From: Candidatus Dojkabacteria bacterium
GTDB lineage: Bacteria > Patescibacteriota > Dojkabacteria > SC72 > WJKH01
NCBI GenBank assembly: GCA_014729235.1
Contig: WJKH01000051.1
Location: 1-41,253, forward strand
DNA length: 41,253 nt
Direction: 5' to 3'
In this document: piece by piece, positions 21,080-38,977 of the stretch
Numbering within the stretch: position 1 is the first letter of the stretch
How the letters are laid out: every line of letters starts with the position of its first letter
Translations under genes and position numbers: made by a program
Notes under the pieces: model-generated
What the model was told of the DNA's origin: nothing
The model's input: the letters and a program-made list of their open reading frames with translations, nothing else
Databases searched by the model: none

Positions 21080-21173
21080 AAAAGATGTCGCAACTAGCCA
21101 GAAGTTGCTTTAGTGCTGGGAGATAATAAACTCCAAAAGCAATTGGTGAAAGTTATAAAAGTCTTCCTAAAGG

Positions 21174-21207
21174 GACCCTGCAGAAAATAATGTCATGCTT
21201 TCATGAT
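21174..21207 (+). repeat. Degenerate copy (R0) of the boundary repeat
   Basis: GACCCTGCAG is identical to the repeats at 29-32 kb, followed by AAAATAATGTCATGCTTTCA, which resembles the rest of the unit (AACAATGTCG then AACTTTTTT) with a small deletion and several changes. Same orientation as the four better copies. The match could be partly chance outside the first 10 bases. Confidence 0.4.
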
Positions 21208-21292
21208 AAAATGTAGATGAATCCACATCAACTACAGTCTAGAAAGTTCTAGTTGCAATCTATATCAAACAACCTCTCAATCCGAGAATCAA

Positions 21293-21475: not shown

Positions 21476-23884
21476 TTATTTATTGCGCAGCGTTAAGCTA
21501 TTAGCCACAACCGAAACAGAACTCATAGCCATTGCCATACTCCCAATGATAGGAGAGAGAAGAATCCCCAAAAAAGGGTACAGCAGACCTGCCGCAATAG
21601 GAATCCCAACAACATTATATATAAAAGCCCAACCTAAATTCTGCTTAATAATTCTCATAACTTGCTTTGAGAGATCTATTGTTTCCACGACTTTTTCAAG
21701 GGAACCCTCAACCAACACTATGTCACCTGAATCAATCGCAATATCACTTCCGGAACCCATTACTATACCGATATCAGCCTGAGCTAATGATGGAGCATCG
21801 TTTACACCATCGCCCACCATACACACAGCCTTATATCCAAGATCACTTTGCAAATCTTTAATACGCTCGACTTTATCACCGGGCAGCAAGGAAGCATAGT
21901 AATTGTCAATTCCGACTTCATCTGCAATCTTTCGAGCAACTTTCTCATTGTCACCGGTAAGCATAACTGTGTCTATACCAACTTTTTTAAGGTTCTTGAT
22001 AGCATCTTTACTGGAAGATTTAATTTTGTCGGCAACGGCGATTATCCCTATGGCTTTACCATCAAGAGCAACAATTACTGTACTACTTCCCTCAGAAGCA
22101 AATTTGTCAATAGCATCCCGATACTTAATTAATTCCACGCTATTCAATTCCATCAATGATTCATTTCCTACAAGAATTCTTTTCTCATCAATTACAGCTT
22201 GCACCCCTTTACCTGTAATTGAATTAAATTTTGTAACTTCATCAAAAACAACGTTTTTGCTTTTCGCCTCGTCAACAACTGCTTTCGCTAATGGATGTTC
22301 TGATGCACTTTCAACACTCGCAGCAACTTTTAGCAGCTCCTTCTCATCCTTTCTATCTGTGCGGATATCGATAACCTGTGGTTTCCCTTCGGTAATTGTG
22401 CCAGTTTTATCAAAAACAACTACATCAATATCGTTAGCTCGTTCTAATGCTGAGCCATCTCGAATAAGAATCCCTTTTGATGCAGCTCTTCCGACGCCAA
22501 CTACGATTGCTGTTGGCGTAGCAAGCCCCAAAGCGCATGGGCACGCGATAATTAGCACAGTACTGGCCACATATGTAGCCAATTGAACATTATTTGCAAT
22601 ATTTCCGACAAATCCAAGTTGAGGAGCAACAACAAGCCAGAATAAAAACGCTGCCAAGGCGATCAGTATTACAACAGGGACAAAAATTGCTGAAATCTCA
22701 TCGGCCAACCGCTGTATTGGGGCCTGAGAGCCTTGAGCATCCTCAACCATGCGAATAATTTGGGATAACAAAGATTCCGAACCCACACCAGTGGCTTTAA
22801 ACCTGAAACTTCCAGTGCGATTTATAGTCCCACCGATCACTTCATCACCAACACCTTTTTCGACAGGCATAGATTCCCCGGTAACCATAGATTCGTCAAG
22901 TGTAGAAGATCCCTTGATAATTTCTCCGTCTACCGGGATCTTTTCACCGGGCTTTACAATTACAATATCCCCAACTGATACCTGGTCAATAGCGACAGTA
23001 ACTTGCTCTCCACCTTTTAATACTGTGGCCTCAGAAGGTCTTAATTTTAAAAGCTTTTTAATTGCAGAATTCGCTTTGGATTTGGCCCTTTTCTCTAGAA
23101 TTCTACCAATTAATATGAATAGCACTATAAAAATAGAGGCTTCAAAAAATACTTCAACTTCACCATCTAGACCTCCAAAAGAATTAGGGAAAAATGTAAC
23201 AACAGTGGAAAAAAGCCAGGCAGTACATGTACCAATTGCAATAAGCGTATCCATATTAGCCTTGAAAATTTTAAGTGCGCTAAAAGCACTTTTAAAGAAA
23301 TCTCTACCTCCAATAAAGAGAACAGGAGTAGCAATTCCAAACTGAATTATGTTCCACAAAGACCAAACCACATCATTATCTTTTATTGAGAATTTGATGT
23401 CACCAAAAAACTCCAACGGAGAGATAAGAAAGCCTGCTCTAGACAGAAGCATCCATACCATACTTAAAACCATTATTCCTCCAGCAACACCTGATAGGAA
23501 AACTTTCTTTTTAAGATCTTGCAGCTCTTCCTGCCTCAGCGCCTCTGCTTCATCAATATTCTCCTCCTCTGAATCTTGCTTGATCTCTCCAGGAGAAGCA
23601 AGAACTAGATCATTATTTTTAACAATAAGTTTGTACGTTCCTGACTTCTCAACAGCCTGTTGGATATCCCGGATTGTCACTTTCTCTCGATCAAAAGCAA
23701 CCTTCATCTTCTCAGTTCCGAAATTAACATAAACTTCTTTTACTCCTTCAATTTCACCAACAACATCTTCTATAAGTGCCTTACAGCTGGCACAGTGCAT
23801 GCCAACAATAGGAAAAGTCTTTGTTGTTATATCAGTACTGCCTAAACTACTAGGATCTTGACCGGTTTTTTGTTTTTTCGTCAT
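21476..23884 (-). CDS. copA: Copper-translocating P-type ATPase
   Basis: An 802-residue P1B-type ATPase. Residues 28-34 GMHCASC give one N-terminal heavy-metal domain. The transmembrane CPC motif ([18 protein letters not shown]), phosphorylation site [20 protein letters not shown] (HP motif), GDN and hinge [20 protein letters not shown] are all present, and the last helix pair carries YN and [11 protein letters not shown], typical of Cu(I) pumps. It exports Cu(I) across the cytoplasmic membrane using ATP. It is the last gene of the operon csoR - HMA/TauE-SafE-like/cupredoxin - VKOR-like - copA, six bases after the VKOR-like gene. Confidence 0.95.
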
Positions 23885-23889
23885 AGTAA

Positions 23890-24132
23890 TTATTTATCTG
23901 CCTTGTTTTTAATTAAAGTAACTGAAGTAATTATAAGAATTAGACAATACATAAAAAGGCCATAAACACAGGCAGGAAGTGTCGCTATTGTAAATCCGCT
24001 CTCACCACAGGAAACGGGAGAAACTGCACAACCTGTTGAAGTAAACAATTCAAGATAAGAAAGATAGCCGGAAAACAGCACCCCGGCAATCGAAACAAAG
24101 AAAACTATTTTCACTGCATTTTTGTAGGACAT
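23890..24132 (-). CDS. Small VKOR-like membrane protein
   Basis: An 80-residue protein with two hydrophobic segments. [26 protein letters not shown] and the later segment [17 protein letters not shown] follow the pattern of the first half of vitamin K epoxide reductase family proteins, including cysteines on the loop and a glycine-tyrosine helix. The usual C-x-x-C active site is missing and the protein is much shorter than a full VKOR, so redox activity is uncertain. Its place between two copper-handling genes suggests a role linked to copper or thiol state of the partner proteins. Confidence 0.6.
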
Positions 24133-24177
24133 CGACCTGAAATTAAACTAAATTATCCGACAGTTAATTTTGCCAAA

Positions 24178-25836
24178 CTAGTCAGAAAAAGGACAATCTG
24201 AATTCCCACAGCCTCCCCCACATTCTCCAGCACAACCGCATCCCCCAACCGTATTTTCATCAACGACAGATCCACTGTCAATTTGTTCTTTGGACAACTC
24301 ACCTGTGCCATCTACAACATCAATAATTCCCGTAACCATGCCCATCCAACAACTAAACTTATATCTGCCAGTTGAACCTGGCGTAAAGATCTTAATAACT
24401 TCAGATTTATCAATCTGCACCTCACCCTCAAATAGATCAGGACTTATCACTGCATCAGTACAACCACTAACTCCATCATTCCTGATTATCCACTTAACGG
24501 GTATCCCCGCTCGAAGTTTAAAGTAATTCGGAGAGTAGCCGGAAGCAGAAGCAGACATCTCAATTACTTGATTCCCTTCATCGTCAATTGGTGGAAGATC
24601 ATCAGTCACGCTTTCCTCATCAGCAAATACCGAAATATTTTTTATATCTGATAAACTAGGAACCCCAAGTAGATTTAGCTGTGAATTAAAAGTATACAGA
24701 GCAAAAAATACAACCAGAATGCCCACAGTTTTTAGAAAGACCCCCGAAATGTGTTTATTGGCTGCTAACTTGCTACTTGTGACACCAATAAACATGAGCA
24801 TCGGCAAAGTACCCAGAGCAAAAGCAAGCGTAATCAGGCTCCCTCGGACAGCACTTCCTGAGATCAAGGCTGCACTTTGAGCAGTTACTGTAAATCCGCA
24901 TGGGAGAAAAAATGTAACAAAACCCAGAACAAATGGCCCCCAGGGACTTTTAATATCGTCCTTTTTCATTGCCCAACGTGATAGAAACTTTGGCAATCCA
25001 AATCTAATATTTTTAAAGTATGGAATGTTCAACATCTGCAAACCAAGAGCTATCATTAAAATTGAGACTAATATCGCCAGAAACGCTGACGCACGAAAAG
25101 ATACCCCTATAACAGAGCCTAAACCACCTAACATAAAACCGAAAACCCCAAAAGAGAGAAGCCTCCCAAAATTGAATAGAATATGCGGAGTATACTTTCC
25201 TCCAAAACCAGCATCATCTTTATACATCTCAGACCATTGCTTAGACATAGAGAGTACTAAACCGCCCACAAGCGCAGCACAACTGGAAAGACCTGCTACA
25301 ATGCCGAAAAGAACAAACATACTTAATGCCGAATTCTCACTTACTGTAAATCCCGAAGTTACACCAGTCTTCTGAAGAATGTAGTAAATAAGTATTAATA
25401 CTCCCGCAGCCCCAAAGGAGTACAAGTACTGCCTGAGATTCTCCCTGTCGATCAGCAACTTACCACCTTGCATCTTAAATAAAGGCGATGAATTACGATA
25501 AGCACCACAAGCGTTTGAACTCTGTCTCTTTGAATTGCCGCACTTGCAGCTTTTATGTGCATAAAACTTGTAATCCTTGTTCTTGAAAAGATCCCTCAGA
25601 TGACCCAATGATGGTTTCGACTTCGAATACTGAATATAAACCTCCCCTTTACTTACAGAGGCATCTACCAATTCAACACCATCTTCTTGTAATAACTTTT
25701 TCTCTATCGCTAACTCACAGCTTGGACAGTGCATTCCATCTACTTTGTATTTTGCTTCTTTCAAGTTTTTAGTTTTTTTCGCCGAAGCCCCTTTCGTATT
25801 GTTAGATCTATTATTTTTTCTTTTGTCATCAGACAT
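24178..25836 (-). CDS. HMA, TauE/SafE-like and cupredoxin fusion protein
   Basis: Three modules are visible. Residues about 28-100 form a heavy-metal domain with VDGMHCPSC (Cys37, Cys40) and extra cysteines (KSCKCGN). Residues about 130-395 carry about six membrane helices of the TauE/SafE or UreH-like type. Residues about 425-515 form a cupredoxin-like outer domain with YSPNYFKLRAGIPVKWIIRN and the ligand-rich FSCWMGM. The tail GGCGCAGECGGGCGNSDC is cysteine-rich. The combination suggests copper handed from a cytosolic site through or beside the membrane part to an outer cupredoxin. Stop of the upstream csoR gene lies 6 bases away, so it is co-transcribed with copper resistance genes. Confidence 0.85.
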   Translation of the reverse strand: MSDDKRKNNRSNNTKGASAKKTKNLKEAKYKVDGMHCPSCELAIEKKLLQEDGVELVDASVSKGEVYIQYSKSKPSLGHLRDLFKNKDYKFYAHKSCKCGNSKRQSSNACGAYRNSSPLFKMQGGKLLIDRENLRQYLYSFGAAGVLILIYYILQKTGVTSGFTVSENSALSMFVLFGIVAGLSSCAALVGGLVLSMSKQWSEMYKDDAGFGGKYTPHILFNFGRLLSFGVFGFMLGGLGSVIGVSFRASAFLAILVSILMIALGLQMLNIPYFKNIRFGLPKFLSRWAMKKDDIKSPWGPFVLGFVTFFLPCGFTVTAQSAALISGSAVRGSLITLAFALGTLPMLMFIGVTSSKLAANKHISGVFLKTVGILVVFFALYTFNSQLNLLGVPSLSDIKNISVFADEESVTDDLPPIDDEGNQVIEMSASASGYSPNYFKLRAGIPVKWIIRNDGVSGCTDAVISPDLFEGEVQIDKSEVIKIFTPGSTGRYKFSCWMGMVTGIIDVVDGTGELSKEQIDSGSVVDENTVGGCGCAGECGGGCGNSDCPFSD

Positions 25837-25842
25837 CGGCAG

Positions 25843-26121
25843 TTATTTAGTAATTTTAAGTACTCGAATGAGCTCATCTATTAGTTCCTGTTTCTTTGCA
25901 GGACTTTTAGTTGTCATCCCATCCGCAAAACAGGTCTCCAAATGTGAGATAAGTTTACTTTTTCGTGCTGAATCAATGTATCCGTCGATCGCGTTTAATT
26001 GCTGAATAATCTCGATGCAGTACTTATCTTCTTCAACCATCTCAATAATCTTGTCTATGTGCGACCTAGCTTTCTTCAAAGTTGTCAGAACGGTTTTATT
26101 TGAGTCACAGCTATCTTTCAT
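25843..26121 (-). CDS. csoR: CsoR-type copper-sensing repressor
   Basis: A 92-residue all-helical repressor of the CsoR/RcnR (DUF156) family. The Cu(I) ligand triad C-H-C is present: C35 in DKYCIEIIQQLNA, and H60 and C64 in SHLETCF. In this family Cu(I) binding releases the protein from its operator and induces export genes. It is the first gene of the copper operon. The C-terminal tail (about residues 68-92) is lysine-rich. A candidate promoter and operator lie about 200 bases upstream. Confidence 0.92.
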   Translation of the reverse strand: MKDSCDSNKTVLTTLKKARSHIDKIIEMVEEDKYCIEIIQQLNAIDGYIDSARKSKLISHLETCFADGMTTKSPAKKQELIDELIRVLKITK

Positions 26122-26364: not shown

Positions 26365-26494
26365 GTATTTGAGATTTATTATTTACATTAACGATTTGAT
26401 TAATGGGAGTTACGAAATTAAAGACATATTATAAGTTTAAAGAAAACAACACGTAATTGGAACTTTGGCCCAAAAGGGTGTCAGAAAATGAGTG

Positions 26495-26525
26495 TGCAGG
26501 GAGCAATATCGAACTTTCTTGATGG
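26495..26525 (+). repeat. Boundary repeat copy R1
   Basis: TGCAGGGAGCAATATCGAAC then TTTCTTGATGG matches the consensus TGCAGGGAACAATGTCGAAC then TTTTTTGATGG with three differences. The similarity extends upstream: GTGTCAGAAAATGAGTG here against GTGTCCAAAAATTACCC at R2. The ATG of other copies is ATA here. It lies just outside the stop of the AAA/DUF4143 gene. Confidence 0.75.
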
Positions 26526-26584
26526 ATTTGGCTATGAAGATAGGAAATATTAAGATCTATAAATTTTCAATATCAGAAACAACA

Positions 26585-27742
26585 CTAATCCAAGAAATTC
26601 TCCCAATTTACAATCTCATGATCTCCAATCTTTTGCTCCTGATTACCTGCGTAAACCACTTTAGTCTCGAGGTTATATTTCTGTGCAAAAAATGTATGAA
26701 GATAATTAAGACCTTTAATCATACTCTTGCTAAATGTACGCCCCGATTTTATCTCAAGAGCAACTTTGTCTAATCCCTTATCAATAATCAAATCGACTTC
26801 ATTTCCATTACTATCTCTCCAGAAATATAGCTTTTCATTTAATCTTTTATTAAATATCTGTTTTGTGATCTCAGAGATAATTAAATTCTCAAAGATTTGA
26901 CCATATGCATAGTGCAGCTTCAACTCTTTAGAACTATTAATACCTAAAAGAAAGCTTAGCAACCCAGTATCATAAAAATAAACCTTGGGGCTTTTAATCA
27001 CTCGCTTGCCAAAATTTTCATAATACGGTTGAAGTCTATAAACAATATAGCTTGCCTCAAGAACTGTTATCCACGAATCAATCGTTTTTACAGAAACCCC
27101 GACATCATTTGCTAACGAGGTCATGTTAACTATTTGGCCAACTCTACCTGCTAACAGATTCATAAACCTTTGAAAGTTAGTCAAATCTCCAATATTTTTC
27201 AACGATCTCACATCACGTGATACATAGGTACTTATATAATCCCTATAGAAATCCACTGAATCAATATTTTTTGTATATTTTCCAGGATAACCTCCCCCTA
27301 AAATAAATTTGTTTAGATCTTTTATTTCAAACTCACCAACAAGCTCATTATAGGATAGAGGCAAAAGTTCAAAATTGGCAACCCTTCCAGCAAATGATTG
27401 AGTAACAGTTTGAGATATTTGAAAGTTTTGATAACCAGTTAATACAAACTGGGACATCTGTTTTTGTTCATCAACTTCATTTTGTATATAGGAAGCAATT
27501 TCTGGTACTTCCTGTATCTCATCAATAATAATTTTCTTGCCGCTACCTATTTCAAGAAAACTTCTAGGGTCTTCTTTAGCTAATAATTTTTCATCAGGAT
27601 TTTCTAAATTTCTGTAAATATGTTTTTTAAAAGTCGATTTCACCAGTGTAGTCTTCCCGGATTGGCGAGGTCCTACTAACAGAATTACTGGGTATTTATG
27701 CGAAAGTTCTTTAATTTTGGGTGTAATATTTCTTTTAATCAT
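26585..27742 (-). CDS. AAA ATPase with DUF4143 C-terminal domain
   Basis: A 385-residue protein of the family with an N-terminal AAA_14 ATPase and C-terminal DUF4143 domain. Walker A is GPRQSGKTT (residues 24-32), Walker B is KKIIIDEIQEVP (about 69-80) and sensor region QFVLTGYQNF (about 97-106; relatives have LTGSQNF). The C-terminal half ends in a nuclease-like segment EVDLIIDKGLDKVALEIKSG (D-x(n)-E-x-K), reminiscent of a PD-(D/E)XK fold. Such proteins are common in accessory regions; function is not firmly known. It is the only gene in the module between repeats R1 and R2. Confidence 0.9.
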   Translation of the reverse strand: MIKRNITPKIKELSHKYPVILLVGPRQSGKTTLVKSTFKKHIYRNLENPDEKLLAKEDPRSFLEIGSGKKIIIDEIQEVPEIASYIQNEVDEQKQMSQFVLTGYQNFQISQTVTQSFAGRVANFELLPLSYNELVGEFEIKDLNKFILGGGYPGKYTKNIDSVDFYRDYISTYVSRDVRSLKNIGDLTNFQRFMNLLAGRVGQIVNMTSLANDVGVSVKTIDSWITVLEASYIVYRLQPYYENFGKRVIKSPKVYFYDTGLLSFLLGINSSKELKLHYAYGQIFENLIISEITKQIFNKRLNEKLYFWRDSNGNEVDLIIDKGLDKVALEIKSGRTFSKSMIKGLNYLHTFFAQKYNLETKVVYAGNQEQKIGDHEIVNWENFLD

Positions 27743-27769
27743 ATGAATAGTATACCATATCTTATGTAG

Positions 27770-27790
27770 TTATGGAATAGCGTTCCATAA
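27770..27790. promoter_or_regulatory. Palindrome upstream of the AAA/DUF4143 gene
   Basis: TTATGGAA (27770-27777), a 5-base centre and TTCCATAA (27783-27790) form a perfect 8-bp dyad about 28 bases upstream of the minus-strand ATG. Position fits an operator; the regulator is unknown. Confidence 0.5.
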
Positions 27791-27924
27791 TTGCATTGTG
27801 GGGTTGGGTTCGTAAATTGCTAAGAATACGCCATAAATGACAACCAACAGAATAAATATCAAATTAAAGAGATATTATGAGTATAAACAAAACAATTCTT
27901 AATGTAGAAGAGTGTCCAAAAATT

Positions 27925-27954
27925 ACCCTGCAGGGAACAATGTCGAACTTTTTT
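27925..27954 (+). repeat. Boundary repeat copy R2
   Basis: ACCCTGCAGGGAACAATGTC then GAACTTTTTT; these 30 bases are identical to R4. The core contains the palindrome CCCTGCAGGG. If the ATG at 27940 were translated the peptide would be MSNFFMQLCTS before a stop. It separates the AAA/DUF4143 module from the AbiE module. Confidence 0.85.
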
Positions 27955-28070
27955 ATGCAATTGTGTACGAGCTGAAACTCTTATCAAAAAGGATAAATCT
28001 AAAACTTTACATAAATCAAACAAAATGATAATATATTTCCATAATATACGTTATTCCGTAGATAATAGAA

Positions 28071-28691
28071 ATGAAAATTTTAAAAGTAAAAGAAAAACTA
28101 CAATCACAAAAAATATTTACTTTACAGGATATTTATACCTTATTTCCAGACTTTAGACGAGAAACATTGTACGATTGGGAAAGTCAAGGGTATGTAAAAA
28201 AAATCCGAAATAAACATTACACTTTTTCAGATCAGGAATTTCGAAACTCAGATTTATACATCGTATCAAACAAAATTTATGATCCTTCCTACGTATCTCT
28301 GGAATCTGCACTCAATCATTATGGAGTAATACCAGAGGCTGTTTTGAAGGTTACCGCAATAACGACAAGAAAAACAAACAGCTTTGAGACTGTCCTTGGT
28401 ACTTTTACTTACAAATCGATAAAAAATTCCCTTTTTTGGGGGTACAAAATTATTGAAAATGAAAATATCGGAATCAAAATTGCTGAACTAGAAAAAGCAA
28501 TACTTGATTATCTTTACCTTAATTCAAATATATCTTCAGAGGAAGATCTTATATCATTAAGGTTTAATACAGATATTCTTAATAATATTCTCAACTATGA
28601 TAAATTACAGAAATACCTCAAGATTTTCTCAAATGACAAATTGAAGGAAAGAGCAACCCAATTAATTCGTTATGTGAATGAAAATGCTTAG
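28071..28691 (+). CDS. abiEi: AbiEi-type antitoxin / transcriptional regulator
   Basis: A 206-residue protein with an N-terminal winged-helix region (FTLQDIYTLFPDFRRETLYD, about residues 17-36, then WESQGYVKKIRNKHY) and the AbiEi hallmark YVSLESALNHYGVIPE (about 83-98) followed by VTAITTRKT. AbiEi proteins repress their operon and counter the AbiEii toxin in a type IV toxin-antitoxin system that can abort phage infection. Its 3' end overlaps the toxin gene by 14 bases, as is usual. The start lacks a Shine-Dalgarno box. Confidence 0.88.
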   Translation: MKILKVKEKLQSQKIFTLQDIYTLFPDFRRETLYDWESQGYVKKIRNKHYTFSDQEFRNSDLYIVSNKIYDPSYVSLESALNHYGVIPEAVLKVTAITTRKTNSFETVLGTFTYKSIKNSLFWGYKIIENENIGIKIAELEKAILDYLYLNSNISSEEDLISLRFNTDILNNILNYDKLQKYLKIFSNDKLKERATQLIRYVNENA

Positions 28692-29460
28692 TATACAAGA
28701 AATCAAGAATCAATATCCAACAGATCTTCACAAGTTTGATCGGGGACTTTTACGAGAATACCTACAGTACCAGATCTTAGGAATAATCTTTAGTCATAAA
28801 ATCGGCTTAAAGCTTTCATTTCTTGGAGGAACATGTCTTAGAATTGTTCACAAATCTAAAAGATTTTCAGAAGATCTTGATTTTGATAATAAGAATCTTA
28901 CACTTCATGAATTCAAAGAATTGTCTAATTACATAAAACGAAAGCTCGAACTTCTTGGTTATACAGTCGAACTTAAGGAGTTTAGAAAGTTAGCTTTTCA
29001 TTGCTATATAAAGTTCCCCAAATTATTATTCAAAGAGGGCTTATCGCCTCTAGAAAAGGAGAAAGTTCTAATCCACCTTGATACATTTGATCAAGGTGTT
29101 AATTACAAATCAGGTAGATTTATTCTTAATAAGTTTGATATTTTCGACCAGATTCTTACAACACCTAAAGAAATAATACTCTCACAAAAGCTATGGACGA
29201 TTACTCAACGGAAAAGAGCTAAAGGAAGAGACTTTTATGACATTATGTTTCTATTTCAAAATACAAAACCTGATATATCTTTTCTCAAAGTAAAATTTGG
29301 AACAGATGATCGGGATTTAATAAAAGAAGAGATAATAAATCATTGTAATGGCTTCAATTGGGATTATCTTGTAAATGATGTAAGTCCATTTTTGCAAACG
29401 AATGAGGATGCCGAAAAAATAAGGTTGTTTCCTAAATTTCTGGAGCAGATCACTTTTTAG
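28678..29460 (+). CDS. abiEii: AbiEii-type nucleotidyltransferase toxin
   Basis: A 260-residue nucleotidyltransferase-like toxin. The family signature is LSFLGGTCLRIVHKSKRFSE then DLDFDN (about residues 46-71): the GGT..LR motif and the DLDFD aspartates of the polymerase-beta fold. A later segment KLWTITQRKRAKGRDFYDIM (about 171-190) carries the conserved K and RDxYD. Relatives transfer nucleotides, for example onto tRNA, and stop growth. It overlaps the antitoxin gene. With it, it fills the module between repeats R2 and R3; its stop lies only 22 bases before R3. Confidence 0.9.
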   Translation: MKMLSIQEIKNQYPTDLHKFDRGLLREYLQYQILGIIFSHKIGLKLSFLGGTCLRIVHKSKRFSEDLDFDNKNLTLHEFKELSNYIKRKLELLGYTVELKEFRKLAFHCYIKFPKLLFKEGLSPLEKEKVLIHLDTFDQGVNYKSGRFILNKFDIFDQILTTPKEIILSQKLWTITQRKRAKGRDFYDIMFLFQNTKPDISFLKVKFGTDDRDLIKEEIINHCNGFNWDYLVNDVSPFLQTNEDAEKIRLFPKFLEQITF

Positions 29461-29482
29461 TGATTTATTACTGTCCATAAAG

Positions 29483-29514
29483 TGACCCTACAGGGAACAA
29501 TGTCGAACTTTTTT
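29483..29514 (+). repeat. Boundary repeat copy R3
   Basis: TGACCCTACAGGGAACAATG then TCGAACTTTTTT; one base differs from R4 over 32 bases (A for G in the palindrome). Upstream CTGTCCATAAAG matches GTGTCCAAAAA of R2. Translation from the ATG would give MSNFFKELQRELNITTDFYY and stop soon after, resembling the R4 peptide. Confidence 0.85.
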
Positions 29515-29567
29515 AAGGAGTTGCAGAGAGAGTTAAATATAACAACGGATTTTTATTATCTGCTAGA

Positions 29568-30434
29568 TTAAAATGTAGTATCATCTCGAAACCATTTTAA
29601 TTTTACTTCTTCACTTGCAATATTTTTTGTATACATTTTGCAAAGTCGTCTCATAGACCTATAAACAAGGAAATACAAAGAATCTGGAAAGTATTTGATC
29701 TTAAGTAATCTCGAAAACACAACCTTAGGTTTTAAAGCATGTTTAATATTCTTAGAAGGAAATTCCTCCTTCATTTGCTCTAATGACTCTATATTCCTTA
29801 TATATCTTTTAAACCATTTCAAAGGATTTGAAGAGGGAATATAATACACATATGAATCATTAATAACTAAAACTTTAGGCCAGTGTATTCTTGTAAGCCA
29901 TGCATCATCATGAATCATATTTTCAGGAATATCTACCCAATTACCCAATCGAAACCCCATAAATCTTCCAACCATATATTTCTTGGGTTCATTAAGAAAC
30001 ATATATTCAGAAGACATTTTAAAAACATTCTGCCAGAATCTTTTAATCAATCCACTCTCTGTTAATTGTCCCTTAGGAGTTAGAGAAACAGCATAGTAGC
30101 CGCTATTTAATTCTTCGATAACTCTTATAATACCCTTCGAGAATATTTTCACATCATCATCCATAAAAGCAATAAATTCATAGTCATTTTGAAACTTATC
30201 AGCCGCAAAATTCATTGCCTTAATCTTTGAGCCTTCAACTAAGTCCAAATGAATAAAATCGTAGTTTGAGCAATTCTTCTCAAGCAGACTGACTGTAGAA
30301 TCAGTACAACCATTAGAAAGAACACAAACATCTACATCATAATCTAAGTTTTGTATCTCATTATATAAATGATACAATGTATTTAGTATATAATCTTGGC
30401 TATTAATTGTTGGTATACAAATGAGTAACTTCAT
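29568..30434 (-). CDS. Family 2 glycosyltransferase
   Basis: A 288-residue GT-A protein. The start MKLLICIPTINSQDYILNTL is the typical first strand, VDVCVLSNGCTDSTVSLLEK the nucleotide-binding loop, and FIAFMDDDVKIF (about 89-100) the D-x-D metal motif. The C-terminal half has DDAWLTRIHWP, a likely catalytic-base region, and no clear membrane helix. It would add a sugar from an activated donor to an unknown acceptor. Its start region overlaps that of the divergent deaminase-like gene by 14 bases if the longest frame of the latter is used. Confidence 0.88.
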   Translation of the reverse strand: MKLLICIPTINSQDYILNTLYHLYNEIQNLDYDVDVCVLSNGCTDSTVSLLEKNCSNYDFIHLDLVEGSKIKAMNFAADKFQNDYEFIAFMDDDVKIFSKGIIRVIEELNSGYYAVSLTPKGQLTESGLIKRFWQNVFKMSSEYMFLNEPKKYMVGRFMGFRLGNWVDIPENMIHDDAWLTRIHWPKVLVINDSYVYYIPSSNPLKWFKRYIRNIESLEQMKEEFPSKNIKHALKPKVVFSRLLKIKYFPDSLYFLVYRSMRRLCKMYTKNIASEEVKLKWFRDDTTF

Positions 30435-30903
30435 ATCTTATATGTTGTCTTATATTAACAACACTTATTATATCACAATAACTTGCTTGCATGCAATTAC
30501 TAGACTAAATTGCCTGAAAAGCTACTCTATAAGCTGTTGCTTAAAAAGAAGAAAGTCGATAATCATTGCCTCCAACCAGAATTCAAAAAAACTCCATGCT
30601 GAGGAACAAGCAATCCTTTCCTGTGACAATCTAAGTCAATCGACTCTATTTGTTACAGTACCCCCATGCCTAAATCGACATAACTCATTAAGTTGCACAG
30701 ATCTAATAATTAACAACAACATCAAAAAACTTGTTCTCTTATTTAAAGAAGATTTTAATCCTCGAGTTGGAGATAAAAGCGTAAAACTCCTTAAAAAAAA
30801 TGGTGTTGAGGTAATAATATTATTTGCTCCGTTATTGAAACTTCTTTATATAACAAGAAACTTATATCAAATAATTCAATTCAAAAAAAAATATGGGAAA
30901 TAA
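30421..30903 (+). CDS. RibD-like cytidine/pyrimidine deaminase domain protein
   Basis: The zinc-binding motifs of the deaminase superfamily are visible: HAEEQAIL (H59-A-E61) and PPCLNRHNSLSC (C83-x8-C92). The eight-residue spacing between cysteines and the later NPRVGDKSVKLLKKNGVEVI match the deaminase half of RibD rather than free cytidine deaminases (C-x2-C). No reductase half follows. The N-terminal start is uncertain: ATG 30421 overlaps the divergent glycosyltransferase, and ATG 30442 or a later start is equally possible. It overlaps the next gene by 11 bases, implying coupling. Substrate unknown. Confidence 0.7.
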   Translation: MSNFISYMLSYINNTYYITITCLHAITRLNCLKSYSISCCLKRRKSIIIASNQNSKKLHAEEQAILSCDNLSQSTLFVTVPPCLNRHNSLSCTDLIINNNIKKLVLLFKEDFNPRVGDKSVKLLKKNGVEVIILFAPLLKLLYITRNLYQIIQFKKKYGK

Positions 30904-31675
30904 ATGGTTAAAAGTTATTCAAAGAAAAGAAAATATCATTAAATCCTATGAATGTGAAACATCCTACAAAAACACTCTCTACTTATTAACTTCGGAGTAC
31001 TTAAAGTGTCTGAACAATAATAATTTCCCAATACCCAAAACAGCTATTACAATAAAAAACAACACTTTGATTATTAAACAAGCTAAAATACGTGGATACC
31101 AATTAAACAGTTACCTCAAAGAGAATTATTCGGATAGTATAATTCTTAGGAAACTTGTATTAATTATTCTTAATACTTTTTTAAAAAGTAATTCAGATCA
31201 CAAAATGAATAGTGAAAGCTCAGTTAACCGCTTTGGAATTGATCCTTCTTTCTCAAACTTTATTGTATATAAAAAAGACATTTATTATGTAGATATCTTT
31301 CCCCCAGTACTTAGAAAATGTACTACTGGCTACACGATGTCAGATATGGAATTTAAAGATGAATACTCTTTCCTTACAAAGTTTATTCCAAATAAAAAAT
31401 ACCTTTTCCTATTCCACACAGCCGTAGGAATTTTCATCGATGTAATCAATCACGTTCTTTATTACACAAGAGATAATACTAATTTCAATGAAATATCAAA
31501 AACATTTTTTGATAACCAATATTACTCTCAATTTCATAAAAAAATAATGTGCGATTATTTTGAGTTGCACAAATCACTCTTGAAAGATTATTTAACAAAT
31601 AAATCACTAGATAAAGTTTCGATTGATAATTTGATTGATAGTCTTGAGAACTTTTACTCATTTTTTCGTAAATAG
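30893..31675 (+). CDS. Kinase-like (aminoglycoside phosphotransferase fold) protein
   Basis: A 260-residue protein with a lobed kinase look. VNRFGIDPSFSNFIVYKKDI then YYVDIFPPVLRK (about residues 111-142) resembles the catalytic loop and D-F-P metal motif of aminoglycoside phosphotransferase-like kinases, here with D-x3-N replaced by DPSFSN. The N-terminal part contains a beta-hairpin region typical of such folds. No further assignment is safe. It overlaps the deaminase-like gene by 11 bases and ends at a terminator whose stem includes its stop codon. Confidence 0.55.
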   Translation: MGNKWLKVIQRKENIIKSYECETSYKNTLYLLTSEYLKCLNNNNFPIPKTAITIKNNTLIIKQAKIRGYQLNSYLKENYSDSIILRKLVLIILNTFLKSNSDHKMNSESSVNRFGIDPSFSNFIVYKKDIYYVDIFPPVLRKCTTGYTMSDMEFKDEYSFLTKFIPNKKYLFLFHTAVGIFIDVINHVLYYTRDNTNFNEISKTFFDNQYYSQFHKKIMCDYFELHKSLLKDYLTNKSLDKVSIDNLIDSLENFYSFFRK

Positions 31676-31690
31676 AGCAAATTGCTCTAT
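31672..31690 (+). terminator. Terminator of the deaminase/kinase-like operon
   Basis: ATAGAGCAA (31672-31680), one base, then TTGCTCTAT (31682-31690) form a perfect 9-bp dyad followed by TTT. The stem includes the TAG stop. The boundary repeat R4 starts directly after it. The one-base centre means the real RNA loop must open several pairs. Confidence 0.6.
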
Positions 31691-31692
31691 TT

Positions 31693-31724
31693 TGACCCTG
31701 CAGGGAACAATGTCGAACTTTTTT
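31693..31724 (+). repeat. Boundary repeat copy R4
   Basis: TGACCCTGCAGGGAACAATG then TCGAACTTTTTT, with GATGGGCTTACG following. The ATG would start MSNFFDGLTKELEVVSALLS, ending after about 30 codons. The 30 bases from 31695 are identical to R2, 3.8 kb away. It closes the third module; the next gene starts about 105 bases downstream. Confidence 0.87.
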
Positions 31725-31830
31725 GATGGGCTTACGAAAGAGCTTGAAGTCGTTTCAGCACTATTAAGTAAATACAAAACCCTATATAATAATGCTAATT
31801 AATTTGTTGAATTTAATAGTTATCTAGAAT

Positions 31831-32337
31831 ATGAAAACAATATTCTTCATTGGTCGAAGTGGTTCTGGAAAATCTACTGCATGTAAATACATCTATAAGC
31901 AATACGATATATCTTTCTTTTCGCTTGATAAGTATCTTCCAAGAGAATCTATTAACCCAGGACTCACAGCAGAAGTTTCCCTAGAAAAGGTACAAAAGGA
32001 AATAAAAGCTTTAGAGTCTAATGAGTTAAGGAACACCGTTGATGTTGGCGCATGGTTTCAAAAGGAAATGCCAATTGAGTTCTGGCAAAAAAGAAAAGAT
32101 CATCTTGTTCTCGTTAAAAGAGACAAAGAACAATGTTTCCAATCATTTTGCAATAGACAGGAAGACAGACAGCCCAGCAACGAAGAACTGAAAACACGCT
32201 TTGAAGATAATGAATTCAAGTCGAGCAAGAGAATCGCCCTCTATGAACTAGCTTCTTGGATAATAGAGAATGATGATTCAGAAGAGAGCTTCATCCAAAA
32301 GGTTGAAAATCTTGTAATGAAGAGACTATTTACCTGA
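31831..32337 (+). CDS. P-loop kinase-like protein
   Basis: A 168-residue P-loop protein. MKTIFFIGRSGSGKSTACKY gives Walker A GRSGSGKST (residues 8-16). A second region DVGAWFQKEMPIEFW then VLVKRDKEQCFQSFCNRQED resembles the lid and base-binding elements of small nucleoside or shikimate kinases, but no substrate can be assigned. A -10 box TATAAT lies at 31785-31790 with a weak -35. It is followed by a strong bidirectional hairpin. Confidence 0.7.
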   Translation: MKTIFFIGRSGSGKSTACKYIYKQYDISFFSLDKYLPRESINPGLTAEVSLEKVQKEIKALESNELRNTVDVGAWFQKEMPIEFWQKRKDHLVLVKRDKEQCFQSFCNRQEDRQPSNEELKTRFEDNEFKSSKRIALYELASWIIENDDSEESFIQKVENLVMKRLFT

Positions 32338-32368
32338 AATCTTCATATTTAAACCCTATTGATATTAA

Positions 32369-32400
32369 AAGTACCCTCCATAATATAATAGAGGGTACTT
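32369..32400. terminator. Bidirectional terminator
   Basis: AAGTACCCTC (32369-32378) and GAGGGTACTT (32391-32400) make a perfect 10-bp stem with a 12-base loop, placed between convergent genes ending at 32337 (+) and 32416 (-). It probably ends both transcripts. Confidence 0.8.
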
Positions 32401-32415
32401 CATTCAAGTCCCAAA

Positions 32416-32655
32416 TTACCATTTAGACTCGTAATCTGGCTTCTCTGTAGAGATATAAGAGTTCAATCCTTGCCCAGAAGTTGCTAACTGTTGCATATGT
32501 GATACAACACCAGCTCCTGCACTTGAATGGGTATACTTATAAAAAGTACTTTTCCCACTAGCAAATTGTACTGTAATATAATCAGCTCCGTTTTCGTAAG
32601 CGACTACATTAGAATCTCCACCTAAATTCGCGTATTGCTGCATAAGGTAAAGCAT
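32416..32655 (-). CDS. Small conserved protein, KTSC-like
   Basis: Using the ATG at 32653-32655 (or the second at 32643), the protein is about 75-79 residues with the pattern DSNVVAYENGADYITVQFAS, G-x3-F-Y-K-Y, LATSGQGLNSYIST and YESKW. This matches a common conserved bacterial family (SNVVAYE..., AGQGLNSFI...) of unknown function and is distantly similar to KTSC domains, such as the protein at 36327-36539. Upstream codons to 32691 add a hydrophobic stretch not seen in relatives. It is divergent from the LexA-like gene at 32769. Confidence 0.65.
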   Translation of the reverse strand: MLYLMQQYANLGGDSNVVAYENGADYITVQFASGKSTFYKYTHSSAGAGVVSHMQQLATSGQGLNSYISTEKPDYESKW

Positions 32656-32703
32656 AAAAAAATTAAATAATAAGGATTTACATATCCTCAAATGTAGGCA
32701 GTT

Positions 32704-32732
32704 TTTGCAATCCGTAAGAATTGTGATATAAT
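32704..32732 (+). promoter_or_regulatory. Promoter of the first LexA-like gene
   Basis: TTTGCA (32704-32709), a 17-base spacer and a perfect TATAAT (32727-32732) lie upstream of the ATG at 32769. Transcription would begin near 32739, leaving a 30-base leader. No obvious operator dyad was seen here. Confidence 0.65.
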
Positions 32733-32768
32733 TATTCTAACATATTAATCTAACGCTGACAAACTATC

Positions 32769-33410
32769 ATGGCACTTACGACCAAACAAAACGAGGTATT
32801 AAATGCAATTAGAAGACATTTTTCTTGTCATACGGGAAGTCCTAGCTTAAGCCAAATCGGTGCTATGGTGAATATTGAATCACGCTCTGGAGTACATTAT
32901 CACATACAAGAGCTTGAAAAATTGGGCATATTATACAAGACTTCAGATGGTATAAAGCTTAAAGACGAAATTCACTTCACTACAATACCAGTATTAGGAA
33001 AAGCTAATGCAGGACAACCTTTGATTCTTGCAGAGGAAGAAGAAATTGGAGAGATTCAACTAGATTCTAGAGTTATACATAACAAAGGAAATCTTTTTGC
33101 TTTAGAGATATCCGGCGATTCCATGAATAGACACTCAATTACAAACCAATATACCAAAAAAGAAATATCTCTTTGTGATGGGAATTACGTAATTATTGAA
33201 AAAAACAGTGATTACAAAGATGGCGATGTAGTACTTGCTATAATTAATGAGTGTGCAACAATAAAGATATTCCTAACAACTGAGGATTCGGTTGTTCTAA
33301 TGCCTAATTCAACCAATTCAATTCATAAACCTATCTTTATTCACGAAGGTGAAGATCTTTTTATTAATGGTAAGTGTGTACTTGCCCTCAACACACCAGA
33401 TATTAGGTAG
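32769..33410 (+). CDS. LexA-like S24-family repressor (first copy)
   Basis: An N-terminal winged helix (residues 1-65; SPSLSQIGAMVNIESRSGVH is the recognition region) is joined to an S24 peptidase domain with cleavage site A81-G82 (KANAGQP), nucleophile S118 (GDSMN) and lysine K166 (ATIKIF). Compared with LexA the S-K segment carries about 11 extra residues (around 120-137). It could be a self-cleaving repressor responding to RecA filaments. Its last 8 bases overlap the end of the convergent nuclease gene (33403-34434). Gene identity is clear; whether it is the SOS LexA or an element-specific repressor is not. Confidence 0.88.
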   Translation: MALTTKQNEVLNAIRRHFSCHTGSPSLSQIGAMVNIESRSGVHYHIQELEKLGILYKTSDGIKLKDEIHFTTIPVLGKANAGQPLILAEEEEIGEIQLDSRVIHNKGNLFALEISGDSMNRHSITNQYTKKEISLCDGNYVIIEKNSDYKDGDVVLAIINECATIKIFLTTEDSVVLMPNSTNSIHKPIFIHEGEDLFINGKCVLALNTPDIR

Positions 33411-34434
33411 CTATCTCTTCTTCAATCTTTTTATACTTATCCTTAACTTCTTCACCACTATAAAACTCGAGCATATCTTCATTAGATAATTTACCATCAG
33501 CAAGAAACTTTTCGAGATAGCTTTGATTAAATTCCATGAGAAGAAGTGCTTTCTCAAGCTCTTTTAAGATCTCTTTATTATTATCAATATTTGATTCCAC
33601 AATCTTTTTTATTGAGAAGAATGTATCAATATCTTTAATAATTCTTTTGATAATCATTGTTAAAGTTTTATCATCAAATTCAATTTCTTTTGCATTTTTA
33701 ACGATATCACGTGCTAAATTGTATGCTATTACCAAATTTGAATAATCACCCTTCCTCGAATCTACAATTACTATAAAACCCACACCATGAATATATGCAA
33801 CAGAATCAGTCAATTTAAGGATACTATTGTCTACCAAAGAAAGGTCGAAGACTATCATTCCGACAGTTCCTTCTCTATTAGCTTTTGCCTCAATTATCTG
33901 ACTCCATGCAGTATCAAACTTCTTTGTGAAAATGTCTTTATCAGAAATATCCCCAAGCTTCATACTTTTATCAAATTTCGCTTCTATAATTATCCTTTTC
34001 TCTTCGTCCCCATCTACAAAGCAAACAATATCACCAGTCTTATTCTTAGGAAGTTTCCCTTCCATAGTTCCTGTTGTTTTGGCTTCATCACGCCATTTCT
34101 TTTCTTTAAAGTATTCATTTAAGAAATCTGTTAAGTCATCTTCAGCAATCATTCCTTTAACTGCAGTCTTGTAGAAAATTTCTTTTTTAAGATCAAACAG
34201 CATTTTCAGGCTTTCAAGTTCTGTTCCCAGCTCGTTCTGAGTTTTTGCGAGAAAGGCAGATATTCTATCTTCCATAAGAGCTAATACTCCGATATATAAA
34301 GCCTGAAAGAATTTATCTTCTCTTTCACTTGCAGGTAATTTGTCAAAGTATTCAAATACAACTTCATTTTCGATTTCAGCCTTATTGATTTTTATTCTTT
34401 TTAGTTTTTGATCTAGCGATATTAGGTTTGCCAT
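33403..34434 (-). CDS. PD-(D/E)XK nuclease-like protein, partner of OLD ATPase
   Basis: A 343-residue protein with a candidate nuclease core: TGDIVCFVDGDEEKRIIIEA then KFDKS gives D135, E151 and K153 in the order D-x15-E-x-K of the PD-(D/E)XK fold, with a following IIEAKANREGTVGMIVFD strand. The N- and C-terminal parts are helical and charged. I do not recognise a named family. It follows the OLD-type gene after 13 bases on the same strand, so the two probably act together, with the nuclease gene last in the LexA-linked operon. Nuclease activity is predicted, not proven. Confidence 0.6.
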   Translation of the reverse strand: MANLISLDQKLKRIKINKAEIENEVVFEYFDKLPASEREDKFFQALYIGVLALMEDRISAFLAKTQNELGTELESLKMLFDLKKEIFYKTAVKGMIAEDDLTDFLNEYFKEKKWRDEAKTTGTMEGKLPKNKTGDIVCFVDGDEEKRIIIEAKFDKSMKLGDISDKDIFTKKFDTAWSQIIEAKANREGTVGMIVFDLSLVDNSILKLTDSVAYIHGVGFIVIVDSRKGDYSNLVIAYNLARDIVKNAKEIEFDDKTLTMIIKRIIKDIDTFFSIKKIVESNIDNNKEILKELEKALLLMEFNQSYLEKFLADGKLSNEDMLEFYSGEEVKDKYKKIEEEIAT

Positions 34435-34447
34435 AATAACTTACCTA

Positions 34448-36325
34448 TTAAAAATTAAATTTCTTAAATGCCTTTACAACATCTCCTGGAATATCTTTTT
34501 TATTCTCAATATATTTCTTTAAGGCTTCTGCCAATTCACTACCTTTACTTGGTATCCTTAACCCTTCTTCCTTGTTCTCTTGTTTACTATAGACAAGATC
34601 TGACAGCATTTTATGAAACTTCTTATCATGTACATCTTGATCGAGTTCGTTACGAAGACTGTCTAAATCATCCTTATTTACATTAATTTCACAAAAATCA
34701 TTTACCAAATTGATCCACACTTCATTGCTAATGGAGTCTTCTATATCACAAATTCCAAGTTTAGAAACATTATCTTCATCAAATCCCTTTGTATCGCCAT
34801 CAAGGATATAAAAAACACAATCTTCAGTTTTTTTGAAATCTTTAAGAACCTGGCGAAAAAATTTTACACTTTTTTTTCGATTCGATTCCCCTTTTAAATT
34901 TACAATCTGAATACTATCTTCTTCTAAGGTTCTTCCAAAAAAGATTTGATATAAATGAGGAATAAGGGAGTAATCTGTATCACCTTCAACAGCAAGAAAT
35001 TTATCAAAGAAAAGAATATCGCTATTTCTAACTTGCAAAACGTTATGAATATCGTCAACAGAGTCACATGTTGATATTGCGGTATATCCATCTACTAGAT
35101 CGACCTTATTCACTAACTTTATGCTTAACCTATCAATAAATAAGGTAGAATGAGTACTCATAATAATCTGAAAGTTTTCTTCCGCCAAATCTTTTATAAT
35201 ATCGAATAGTTCTCGCTTTGCTGAAGGGAACAAATGTACCTCAGGCTCATCAAAACACCATATGAAGTTTATTCTACTATCGTTTTCTGAAGCTTCCTGC
35301 ATACTTCTCCATTTTAGGAAAGCAAAAAGAATTTGCTTCTTTAAACCTTCACCTTGAGAATCTACATTTATTTCACCATCAGCATTTTCTTTCTCAACAA
35401 CAATGTCAGAAATAGATTCCTTAATATCAAAAGAAATTCCAGCTTTAAGAGTTTTAATTTGAGGAATCATTCTCAAAAGATCCTTCGTTTTTGCCGAGAG
35501 ATCTTCATTTACTTTGTCATTAGCCTCTTGACTTATCTCCAAAGCCTTTTCTTGCAACTTATCTTTTGATTCTTCAATGCTCAACGACATTGCATCTCCC
35601 GCAAGATTCTTAATATCATCCATAGAAGCGTTCCAATCAATGTATCGATATGTAGGAAAGAAAGTTTTATCTTTCTTAACAAAATCAGAATACTGAGTCC
35701 ATTGTGGAGAAGTTTTTACTTTTTTATAAATTGACCTAAACAATTCTAATTTTCTAAAAGGTCCAGATTTATTATCATTATCAATCTGATCATCAGTTAT
35801 AGATAGCTCTTTTATTCTACTTTTTAATTCAGTCTTACCTTTACTCCAGAGAGAAGACGGAGTAGATTCTTCTTCCGCACATAAGTAATAGATTCCTTGA
35901 GGATTTTCTGAACTATAACGTTTCAACAATACAATTTCCTCATTAGATATACTTTCTATGCTCCATTGTAAATGTTCTGATGCCTTTTCGATAAAATCGT
36001 CTGATATATCACCGTCTTCTGTTTCAAAAATCCCAATAAAAATGATTGAATGTGAATCATATTCCATTTCCGGAAGGCTCAAATCTTCTAGTAGAGATTT
36101 AAATTCTTTCTCAGAGAGTTGAGTGTTGGATAAATCTGAGCTTAACTGATAGTCATGTGAAAGGTTAAGCGTTTCACTCTCCAATAAATTCTGAATTGAT
36201 TTTAAGATTACTGTCTTTCCTGCATCATTTATACCTATATAAGTATTCGGTACGTCTTTCTTGAAGTCTAATACCAAATTCCTACAACTTCGGTAATTAA
36301 TTATCGCTAATTTACTTAAATGCAT
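34448..36325 (-). CDS. OLD-family ATPase with TOPRIM domain
   Basis: A 625-residue OLD-type protein. The ATPase half has Walker A GINDAGKT (31-38), a signature-like SQGEGLKKQI (323-332), Walker B FIWCFDEPEVH (354-364) and H-loop histidine in MSTHST (H392). The C-terminal TOPRIM part shows FLAVEGDTDY (E447) and ILDGDTKG (D509, D511). OLD proteins are nucleases or effectors in phage defence (OLD, Gabija GajA and relatives). No UvrD-like GajB is nearby; the partner here is a PD-(D/E)XK-like protein. It follows a KTSC gene after 1 base, suggesting a LexA - KTSC - OLD - nuclease operon. Confidence 0.92.
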   Translation of the reverse strand: MHLSKLAIINYRSCRNLVLDFKKDVPNTYIGINDAGKTVILKSIQNLLESETLNLSHDYQLSSDLSNTQLSEKEFKSLLEDLSLPEMEYDSHSIIFIGIFETEDGDISDDFIEKASEHLQWSIESISNEEIVLLKRYSSENPQGIYYLCAEEESTPSSLWSKGKTELKSRIKELSITDDQIDNDNKSGPFRKLELFRSIYKKVKTSPQWTQYSDFVKKDKTFFPTYRYIDWNASMDDIKNLAGDAMSLSIEESKDKLQEKALEISQEANDKVNEDLSAKTKDLLRMIPQIKTLKAGISFDIKESISDIVVEKENADGEINVDSQGEGLKKQILFAFLKWRSMQEASENDSRINFIWCFDEPEVHLFPSAKRELFDIIKDLAEENFQIIMSTHSTLFIDRLSIKLVNKVDLVDGYTAISTCDSVDDIHNVLQVRNSDILFFDKFLAVEGDTDYSLIPHLYQIFFGRTLEEDSIQIVNLKGESNRKKSVKFFRQVLKDFKKTEDCVFYILDGDTKGFDEDNVSKLGICDIEDSISNEVWINLVNDFCEINVNKDDLDSLRNELDQDVHDKKFHKMLSDLVYSKQENKEEGLRIPSKGSELAEALKKYIENKKDIPGDVVKAFKKFNF

Positions 36326-36326
36326 C

Positions 36327-36539
36327 TTATGAAACCTTTTTATACTGGTATACTCCCTTTATATTCTGATCAAAATATTGCCCATGTGAAGACGCAGACA
36401 TCAGTCCATCATAGACATTCTTAGGAACATTAAAGTATTGATATATCCCACTACTATGAAATTCAATCTCTAAAGTGTTTGAATTCTCATCGTAACCGAC
36501 AGATGCCAAATTTGATGACTGTACTTTTACTCTTTGCAT
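36327..36539 (-). CDS. KTSC-domain protein
   Basis: A 70-residue protein that is essentially one KTSC domain: VKVQSSNLASVGYDENSNTL then EIEFHSSGIYQYFNVPKNVY and ASSHGQYFDQNIKGVYQY. KTSC domains occur alone and fused to the C-terminus of some lysyl-tRNA synthetases; their role is not known. The gene lies 21 bases after the LexA-type gene and ends 1 base before the OLD-type gene. AT-rich leader TTAATTAATTTTAATAAAAT touches its start and there is no ribosome binding site. Confidence 0.85.
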   Translation of the reverse strand: MQRVKVQSSNLASVGYDENSNTLEIEFHSSGIYQYFNVPKNVYDGLMSASSHGQYFDQNIKGVYQYKKVS

Positions 36540-36560
36540 TTTAATTAATTTTAATAAAAT

Positions 36561-37169
36561 TTATATAGTTGTAACAACAACACCCTGAACTCTAAAATCT
36601 TCATGTAAAATTATCGGGACATGTTTATTATTCGAAGATTTGGGCTCAAGAATTATTGAATTATTACCTCGTGAATATTTTTTAATCGTAGCCTCGTTAT
36701 CTATCAGGGCGACAATATTCTCACCTTCCTCTGCAAAATCAGTCTGTCTAATCAAAACCAAATCCCCATCCTTAATCCCAGCCTGATCCATAGAATCACC
36801 TTGAGCTTTCAGTAAAAAGTATTTGTGCGGAGGTTTTGCAATCGAAGTAGAAACTTTAAAATATCCTTGAATATTTTCTTCCGCAAATATTGGGGCACCA
36901 CAAGCAACTGCACCAACTAGAGGAACGTCAATTGTTGAAGCTTGCTCCGCAGAATCATCTAAAGGATAATCCAGAAGCACTAAATCGCCATCATTATTTC
37001 TTTCTATGACTTCTAGTTCAATTAACTCGTCAACTACAAGTGCCGCTGATCTAGGAGATTTATAATTTAGTTCTTTCATAATATCCCTTATTGAAGGTGA
37101 AGAACCGGTGTGAACAAGAATATTTCTTATGAATCTTAATGCTTTGCTTTGTTTTTCATTTAATGTCAT
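36561..37169 (-). CDS. lexA: LexA repressor (second copy)
   Basis: A 202-residue protein with the standard LexA layout: winged helix (residues 1-65; SPSIRDIMKELNYKSPRSAA recognition region), cleavage site C90-G91 (VACGAP; many LexA have A-G), catalytic S126 (GDSMDQAGI) and K163 (ATIKKY), separated by 37 residues as in LexA. RecA filaments would trigger self-cleavage. It begins a minus-strand operon with KTSC, OLD and nuclease genes. Its promoter -10 box is inside a dyad (37174-37188), fitting autorepression, and the transcript appears leaderless. Confidence 0.9.
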   Translation of the reverse strand: MTLNEKQSKALRFIRNILVHTGSSPSIRDIMKELNYKSPRSAALVVDELIELEVIERNNDGDLVLLDYPLDDSAEQASTIDVPLVGAVACGAPIFAEENIQGYFKVSTSIAKPPHKYFLLKAQGDSMDQAGIKDGDLVLIRQTDFAEEGENIVALIDNEATIKKYSRGNNSIILEPKSSNNKHVPIILHEDFRVQGVVVTTI

Positions 37170-37173
37170 AATA

Positions 37174-37206
37174 CAGTATTATACACTGCGTATTCTTTCT
37201 TCGCAA
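37174..37206 (-). promoter_or_regulatory. LexA gene promoter with overlapping operator dyad
   Basis: On the minus strand TTGCGA (37201-37206), 17 bases, then perfect TATAAT (37178-37183). The -10 lies within CAGT-N7-ACTG (37174-37188), a dyad like an SOS box. The predicted start point is at or next to the ATG (37169), so the mRNA would be leaderless. ATTATACACTGC (37178-37189) recurs upstream of the Vsr gene at 37705-37716. Confidence 0.65.
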
Positions 37207-37266
37207 GTCCGTATACTTCTGAAAAGATTATGTCTTAATTATAAGGCTTAGAGTACTCGAAAAGTA

Positions 37267-37674: not shown

Positions 37675-37780
37675 TTGTTTTTCAAATTTAAAGATTATAT
37701 TCCAATTATACACTGCAGATATAAGCTACTTCCCGTTTGATATAATTTACTTTACATGCAGCTGCAAAATATTTAATAAC

Positions 37781-37809
37781 TTGTTAATATATATACTGTA
37801 GAATATATA
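37781..37809 (+). promoter_or_regulatory. Promoter of the C5 methyltransferase gene
   Basis: TTGTTA (37781-37786), 17 bases, then TATATA (37804-37809) in front of the ATG at 37843. TACTGTA lies within the spacer and recalls the half-site near the LexA gene. Confidence 0.6.
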
Positions 37810-37842
37810 TAAATAATTTGATAAAACACATGGAATAACTAG

Positions 37843-38938: not shown

Positions 38939-38977
38939 TATTAACAGCACTATTTGCAGTTGTAATATATACAGTTT

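Follow-up and report, generated by a model that had tools for sequence, protein, structure and literature searches.

The window, that is, the whole stretch of 41,253 nucleotides analysed here, is one contig (C39) of a genome of 1.16 Mb in 88 contigs (G000), and a short repeat in a single orientation separates the gene modules listed in Table 1. The initial annotation had reported four same-strand copies (R1 to R4) dividing unrelated modules, and the copies and their common strand are borne out. Its module contents hold for DUF4143, AbiEi/AbiEii, the glycosyltransferase and the deaminase-like gene, whereas the gene that it called kinase-like is a weak DUF6206 match; to the right of R4 there is a P-loop kinase-like gene. 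This latter gene belongs to the last module, together with two LexA-type regulators, an OLD/GajA-like nuclease (34448-36325), a restriction-modification block (37267-40525) of Vsr, C5-methyltransferase and FokI-type endonuclease, and an ArdC-like gene truncated by the contig end. The cargo of the stack is mostly of the defence type. The GC content is 39% (host-like) in the copper module, which lies between R0 and R1, and from R1 to the end of the contig it is lower, at 29-35%. It is uncertain whether the copper module belongs to the island, and R0 and this module may be older or native.

Table 1. Repeat units, gene modules and contig overlap in the window
Feature	Position	Strand	Basis
R0 (probable decayed unit)	21158..21213	+	profile of six good copies
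Copper module: P-type ATPase, DsbD/cupredoxin fusion, metal-sensing repressor	21476..26121	-	Pfam
R1 unit	26473..26544	+	profile, tRNA 15-mer search
Module 1: AAA_14/DUF4143 ATPase	26585..27742	-	Pfam; PADLOC PDC-S01
R2 unit	27907..27978	+	20-mer, profile
Module 2: AbiEi	28071-28691	+	Pfam, PADLOC
Module 2: AbiEii	28678-29460	+	Pfam, PADLOC
R3 unit	29471..29540	+	20-mer, profile
Module 3: glycosyltransferase 2 (-), cytidine-deaminase-like (+), DUF6206-like (+; weak match)	29568..31675		Pfam
R4 unit	31678..31750	+	20-mer, profile
Last module (runs on into C44)	31831..41253		Pfam, PADLOC
15-base overlap with the start of C44	41239..41253	+	exact overlap, in-frame ArdC over the join

A 20-mer of the repeat is present exactly in R2 and R4 and with one mismatch in R3, while 0.00 copies are expected from shuffles; R1 deviates at 3 of 25 positions. 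As had been noticed at the outset, R2 and R4 agree in every base of a 30-base stretch. In the whole genome there are six good copies, namely R1 to R4 and two on the 4.3-kb contig C29 (C29a and C29b), which are on the same strand as each other, are nearly identical to R2 and R4, and enclose SWIM, ATPase/DUF234 and other genes. A profile built from the six copies revealed a seventh, R0, whose score (E value of 0.0008 within the window and 0.0025 genome-wide) exceeds the best of 20 shuffled sets; it is a probable decayed unit, of lower certainty than R1 to R4. The genome-wide search, which the initial annotation had proposed and in which an even spread would have told against boundary sites, thus added R0 and the two copies on C29, and the units are unevenly distributed over the contigs of this genome. 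The weak similarity described upstream of the copies is found between R1 and R2 (43 nt at 84%, extending about 80 nt upstream) and partly in C29a, and is absent from R4. No inverted partner of the unit was found, only direct repeats. Outside this genome, an exact 19-mer scan of other genome contigs gave two matches in unrelated bacteria, near the chance rate, the same scan of viral contigs gave none, and the phage and plasmid searches returned only noise. A match in G274 was rejected as a copy, as it sits within an HD-domain gene, and weak profile matches in other genomes of the class were rejected as being at chance level.

The 3' end of tRNA-Lys(CTT), reverse-complemented, makes up the left half of the unit (TGAnCnnGCAGGGA); this nature of the repeat, like the target just past the window, had escaped the initial annotation. 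The right half (ACAATGTCGAACTTTTTTGAnGG..., from ACAATGTCGAAC onward) is conserved and common to the incoming segments, whose left end it forms. The six-copy profile also matches contig C44 at its tRNA-Lys gene, which ARAGORN reports as tRNA-Lys(ctt) at 1926-2000 on the minus strand, and whose plus-strand start, ATGAGCGTGCAGGGAATCGAACCC, has the counterparts ATGAGTGTGCAGGGAGCAATATCGAAC in R1 and ATGAGCACGCAGGGAACAATGTCGAAC in C29b. With at most three mismatches allowed, the 3' 15-mer of this tRNA matches R1, R2, R4, C29a, C29b and the tRNA itself, in each case on the same strand, with no further match among the contigs of this genome that were searched. Since the units and the tRNA are matched on one strand by the same 15-mer, the left half is the tRNA-Lys 3' tail, comprising the acceptor and T-stem strand. 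Among all copies, the left half of R1 (26488-26502, ATGAGTGTGCAGGGA) is nearest to the 3' end of the host tRNA-Lys, and R1 is likely the outermost displaced tail. Between the inner units and the host tRNA-Lys, 2-4 of 15 positions are different, a point against insertion at this tRNA. Directly before the second full unit of C29 (L007 3280-3490, G000:C29), after a half unit (GGCCCGCAGGGAATCAATTCTGG) there are about 160 bases of dissimilar sequence with a higher GC content, which is perhaps another tRNA-derived piece.

The array can be followed past the window. The final 15 bases of the window are exactly those with which C44 begins; an open frame truncated by both contig ends runs in frame over the join, and the joined protein acquires an N-terminal ArdC domain extending across it. 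On the basis of this short overlap and the ArdC reading frame, the intact tRNA-Lys lies about 1.9 kb past the window end with its 3' end toward the array, and beyond it are an Ig-like protein and then RecO. Such a layout, with displaced tails outside and a restored gene inside, is the geometry expected of insertions at a tRNA 3' end.

The same locus in relatives agrees with this. In G018, which belongs to another family of the same order, the locus of RecO, Ig-protein and tRNA-Lys(ctt) contains two unit-like sites in the order unit, Nudix, unit, DUF2726 and tRNA-Lys, that is, on the 3' side of the syntenic tRNA and in the predicted orientation. The right side of tRNA-Lys(ctt) is syntenic among the genomes compared there, and the left native neighbour of the tRNA in 12 compared genomes is an ELP3-like gene (a name given from sequence to the gene cluster c4). 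Its distance to tRNA-Lys is 47 bp in G010, 80 bp in G017 and 14 bp in G027, which are empty sites, and 0.95-6.3 kb in the nine other genomes, which are filled sites; G026 and G028, which are filled, belong to the same genus as the empty G027, but no gain or loss of a single module was seen between close strains. As the ELP3-like gene ends only 14-80 bp away in the empty genomes, the insertion junction is at the tRNA 3' end, where insertion into this tRNA would place it. A recognisable Lys-type unit is absent from most of the filled sites of the relatives. The left boundary of the island in the window is not fixed, R0 being weak and no ELP3-like gene being present within the window.

It had been stated that no recombinase is visible, and indeed no match to the tyrosine recombinase family (PF00589) was obtained on C39 or C44. 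In the whole order, no integrase adjoining a tRNA-Lys unit was found either; the integrase that was to be looked for beside a copy elsewhere is instead present at sister units, which are related to tRNA-Pro, in the same genome. Here, XerA-like tyrosine integrases are encoded on C71 and C67, and a Pro-type unit (TACTGGACGCGTTACGAAC) lies about 160-230 bp past the stop of each of them; further copies follow a CYTH gene on C71 and occupy a second position on C67. The peptide downstream of the Pro-type unit finds equivalent sites in G001, G002, G003, G015 and G023. The unit start in G023 (TGGTCGGGGTGA) is identical to the tRNA-Pro(ggg) of that genome and the one in G001 (CGGGGAGACAGGAC) to tRNA-Pro(tgg), by which the left halves of the Pro-type units are identified as tRNA-Pro 3' tails. 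In G015, G023, G003, G001 (C22) and G000 (C67) the units are situated 1.3-5 kb away on the 3' side of tRNA-Pro, on C82 the tRNA-Pro is on the opposite side of the unit, and the other contigs with Pro-type units have no tRNA-Pro nearby. The arrangement is most compact in G003, where 5 bp separate the end of the integrase from the tRNA, and unit, cargo, integrase and tRNA are inside 2.5 kb. Moreover, G015 and G023 have a toxin-antitoxin cassette in common, and an extra 3.5 kb before the tRNA is found only in G023. Pro-type units occur in six genomes including this one, four of which have the integrase, and all genomes with a XerA-like integrase (4/4) carry the units (hypergeometric 1.3e-4, relatedness being ignored). 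In viral contigs, the search for the integrase gave one distant relative only. The second site on C67 is made up of two unit types with TACGAAC as the junction; such a hybrid points to recombination within the core. A homology of Lys-type and Pro-type units, hinted at by eye (CGAAC with a short ORF after it), was dropped, as neither profile detects the other; the two have only the architecture in common. After the Pro-type core there is a conserved peptide of 34-41 aa (YERILPYIDTIISYFKEFEYKWKFL type) with synonymous-type changes (L039 475-720, G000:C67; L056, G001:C30; L057, G002:C15), often followed by a second tiny gene for a membrane peptide of 39-50 aa (MIYKRGKGxKIYRxSGF...).

Taking these data together, the repeats are very probably attachment sites left by site-specific insertion into the 3' end of tRNA-Lys(CTT), and the modules a tandem accretion without integrase. 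An incoming circular segment would bring its own tRNA 3' tail, and recombination would rebuild the tRNA on the right and shift the older tail outward, with the result that a tail plus the conserved left end of the next element would come to lie between modules. Repeated insertion would then give the head-to-tail stack of R1, DUF4143, R2, AbiE, R3, glycosyltransferase/deaminase, R4, the restriction/nuclease module and tRNA-Lys. The enzyme might be a tyrosine integrase akin to the XerA-like ones in the tRNA-Pro arrays, with crossover in the T-arm of the tRNA, and the modules may be mobile at present. Because no Lys-type module has a recombinase, the modules would be either CIME-like, with an integrase in trans moving them, or remnants of elements whose own integrase was lost. 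We assume, with some reserve, that a helper acted in trans at some recent time. The initial annotation had suggested an attachment or boundary site of mobile cassettes moved in trans; the tRNA tail, the tRNA-Lys end, the G018 locus, the empty sites and the integrase linked to sister units in this genome speak for the attachment part, while the trans part is consistent with the missing recombinases. A wider and rather unlikely scheme is that integrase-less cassettes of 1-3 kb, with tRNA-Lys or tRNA-Pro 3' tails and a common left end, form a pool in this lineage that depends in trans on a small XerA-like integrase; this would amount to integron-like capture anchored at tRNA genes instead of attI.

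The relic alternative could also be taken further, as a variant that overlaps with the accretion explanation: the modules arrived together long ago in a composite island, which has decayed and is now immobile, and the repeats are scars. The lack of a recombinase in all Lys-type modules, the decay of R0, the divergence of R1 and the retention of the upstream ends in only some copies would fit such a history, yet the identity of R2 and R4 over 30 bases and the near-identical copies on C29, set beside unrelated modules, indicate recent or repeated use, and we regard complete immobility as possible, if somewhat doubtful. An integron-like cassette array resembling a CALIN, in which the units are attC-like sites and a dedicated integrase shuffles single cassettes, would likewise account for head-to-tail units around varied cargo, including toxin-antitoxin type genes, without a local integrase, and a XerA-like integrase does lie inside an array of sister units in this genome. 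However, a tRNA 3' tail makes up the left half of the unit, the array terminates at that very tRNA, the units fold no better than shuffles (z-scores of -1.75 to 1.87), and the candidate integrase scores 208-209 bits, which is at the XerA cut-off and below the integron-integrase cut-off of 265, making this array type quite improbable.

Transposon ends (solo IS ends) or a duplicated short coding start are highly improbable as the origin of the repeats. The TGTCC motifs upstream resemble IS ends and an open frame, KxTLQGTMSNFF, is common to the units, but the left half is tRNA sequence, and the repeats are direct only, without terminal inverted repeats; past the core, the bias by codon position is weak, with 18 synonymous against 53 non-synonymous codon differences. 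The IS-end interpretation of the TGTCC motifs was accordingly dropped once the left half had been identified as tRNA, and that of the MSNFF frame as a duplicated gene for the weak codon bias in the Lys-type units. The solo ends of a mobile element, which the initial annotation had offered as its other possibility, are thus the weaker half of its proposal, transposon-type inverted ends not having been found.

Among the known systems, the tRNA islands catalogued by Islander are similar in having an intact tRNA at one end, same-orientation displaced 3' fragments downstream, a site in the T-stem region and tandem stacking, and an empty target is present in relatives here. For Islander, each island must contain an integrase and be longer than 2 kb, and only 4 tandems of three or more were recorded in 2168 genomes (PMC4383910), whereas four modules are stacked here without integrase and two of them are only 1.4-1.6 kb. 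Because there is no integrase inside (C39, C44), the array is not a strict Islander-type island. In CIME accretion, att-flanked segments without integration genes are stacked at one target (PMC5704250), and the present array is like CIMEs and ICE-IME accretion in that att sites are on both sides of modules 1-3 and a tyrosine recombinase is missing. Unlike in known CIMEs, no related ICE/IME or conjugation genes were identified beside the stack, going by the Pfam matches among the genes scanned, and the lineage is one of small genomes and not Streptococcus. The host is probably a patescibacterium, judging by its genome size and by the small genomes found throughout the sample of its phylum. The XerA-like tRNA-Pro elements of this genome and its relatives have the same succession of tRNA 3' tail plus conserved left end, cargo and tRNA, and differ in the target, which is tRNA-Lys here, and in sometimes having an integrase. 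There is a partial likeness to integrons and CALINs (defined in PMC11389934), with direct-repeat sites around varied cassettes and an integrase in trans, from which the array differs by the lack of attC-type folding and IntI and by the tRNA target. In searches of the open-access literature, no account of stacks of this kind in the lineage was found.

An unexplained repeat has thereby been traced to an integration hotspot, now mapped, whose attachment site can be tested, and this offers a way to find small stacked cassettes overlooked by standard island finders, as these require an integrase per island. The tRNA-Pro family with an integrase in the array means that the architecture is found more than once in this order, whose genomes are very small, and insertion at tRNA ends seems to let toxin-antitoxin, restriction, nuclease and stress genes accumulate in stacks.

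Some further features were observed around the tRNA-Pro units and the tyrosine recombinases. In G001:C44 (L054 ~2300-3710), one Pro-type unit overlaps the 3' end of an apparent large serine recombinase gene and not of a tyrosine integrase; tRNA genes are not known as targets of serine integrases (PMC4383910). On G000:C67, a unit is fused in frame to a 5' fragment of a Nudix-like gene (L039 2648-2869), and a cysteinyl-tRNA-synthetase-like gene is in two frames (L039 2859-4285), which is a pseudogene or an assembly error. On G000:C65 (L036 1453-3192), a tyrosine recombinase bears about 250 residues of Ser/Gly-rich insertions. In addition, upstream of the XerA-like integrase gene on G000:C71 (L033 2340-2540) there are two strong inverted repeats, GTTAGCCAAC...GTTGGCTAA and CTGTTAGAC...GTCTAACAG.
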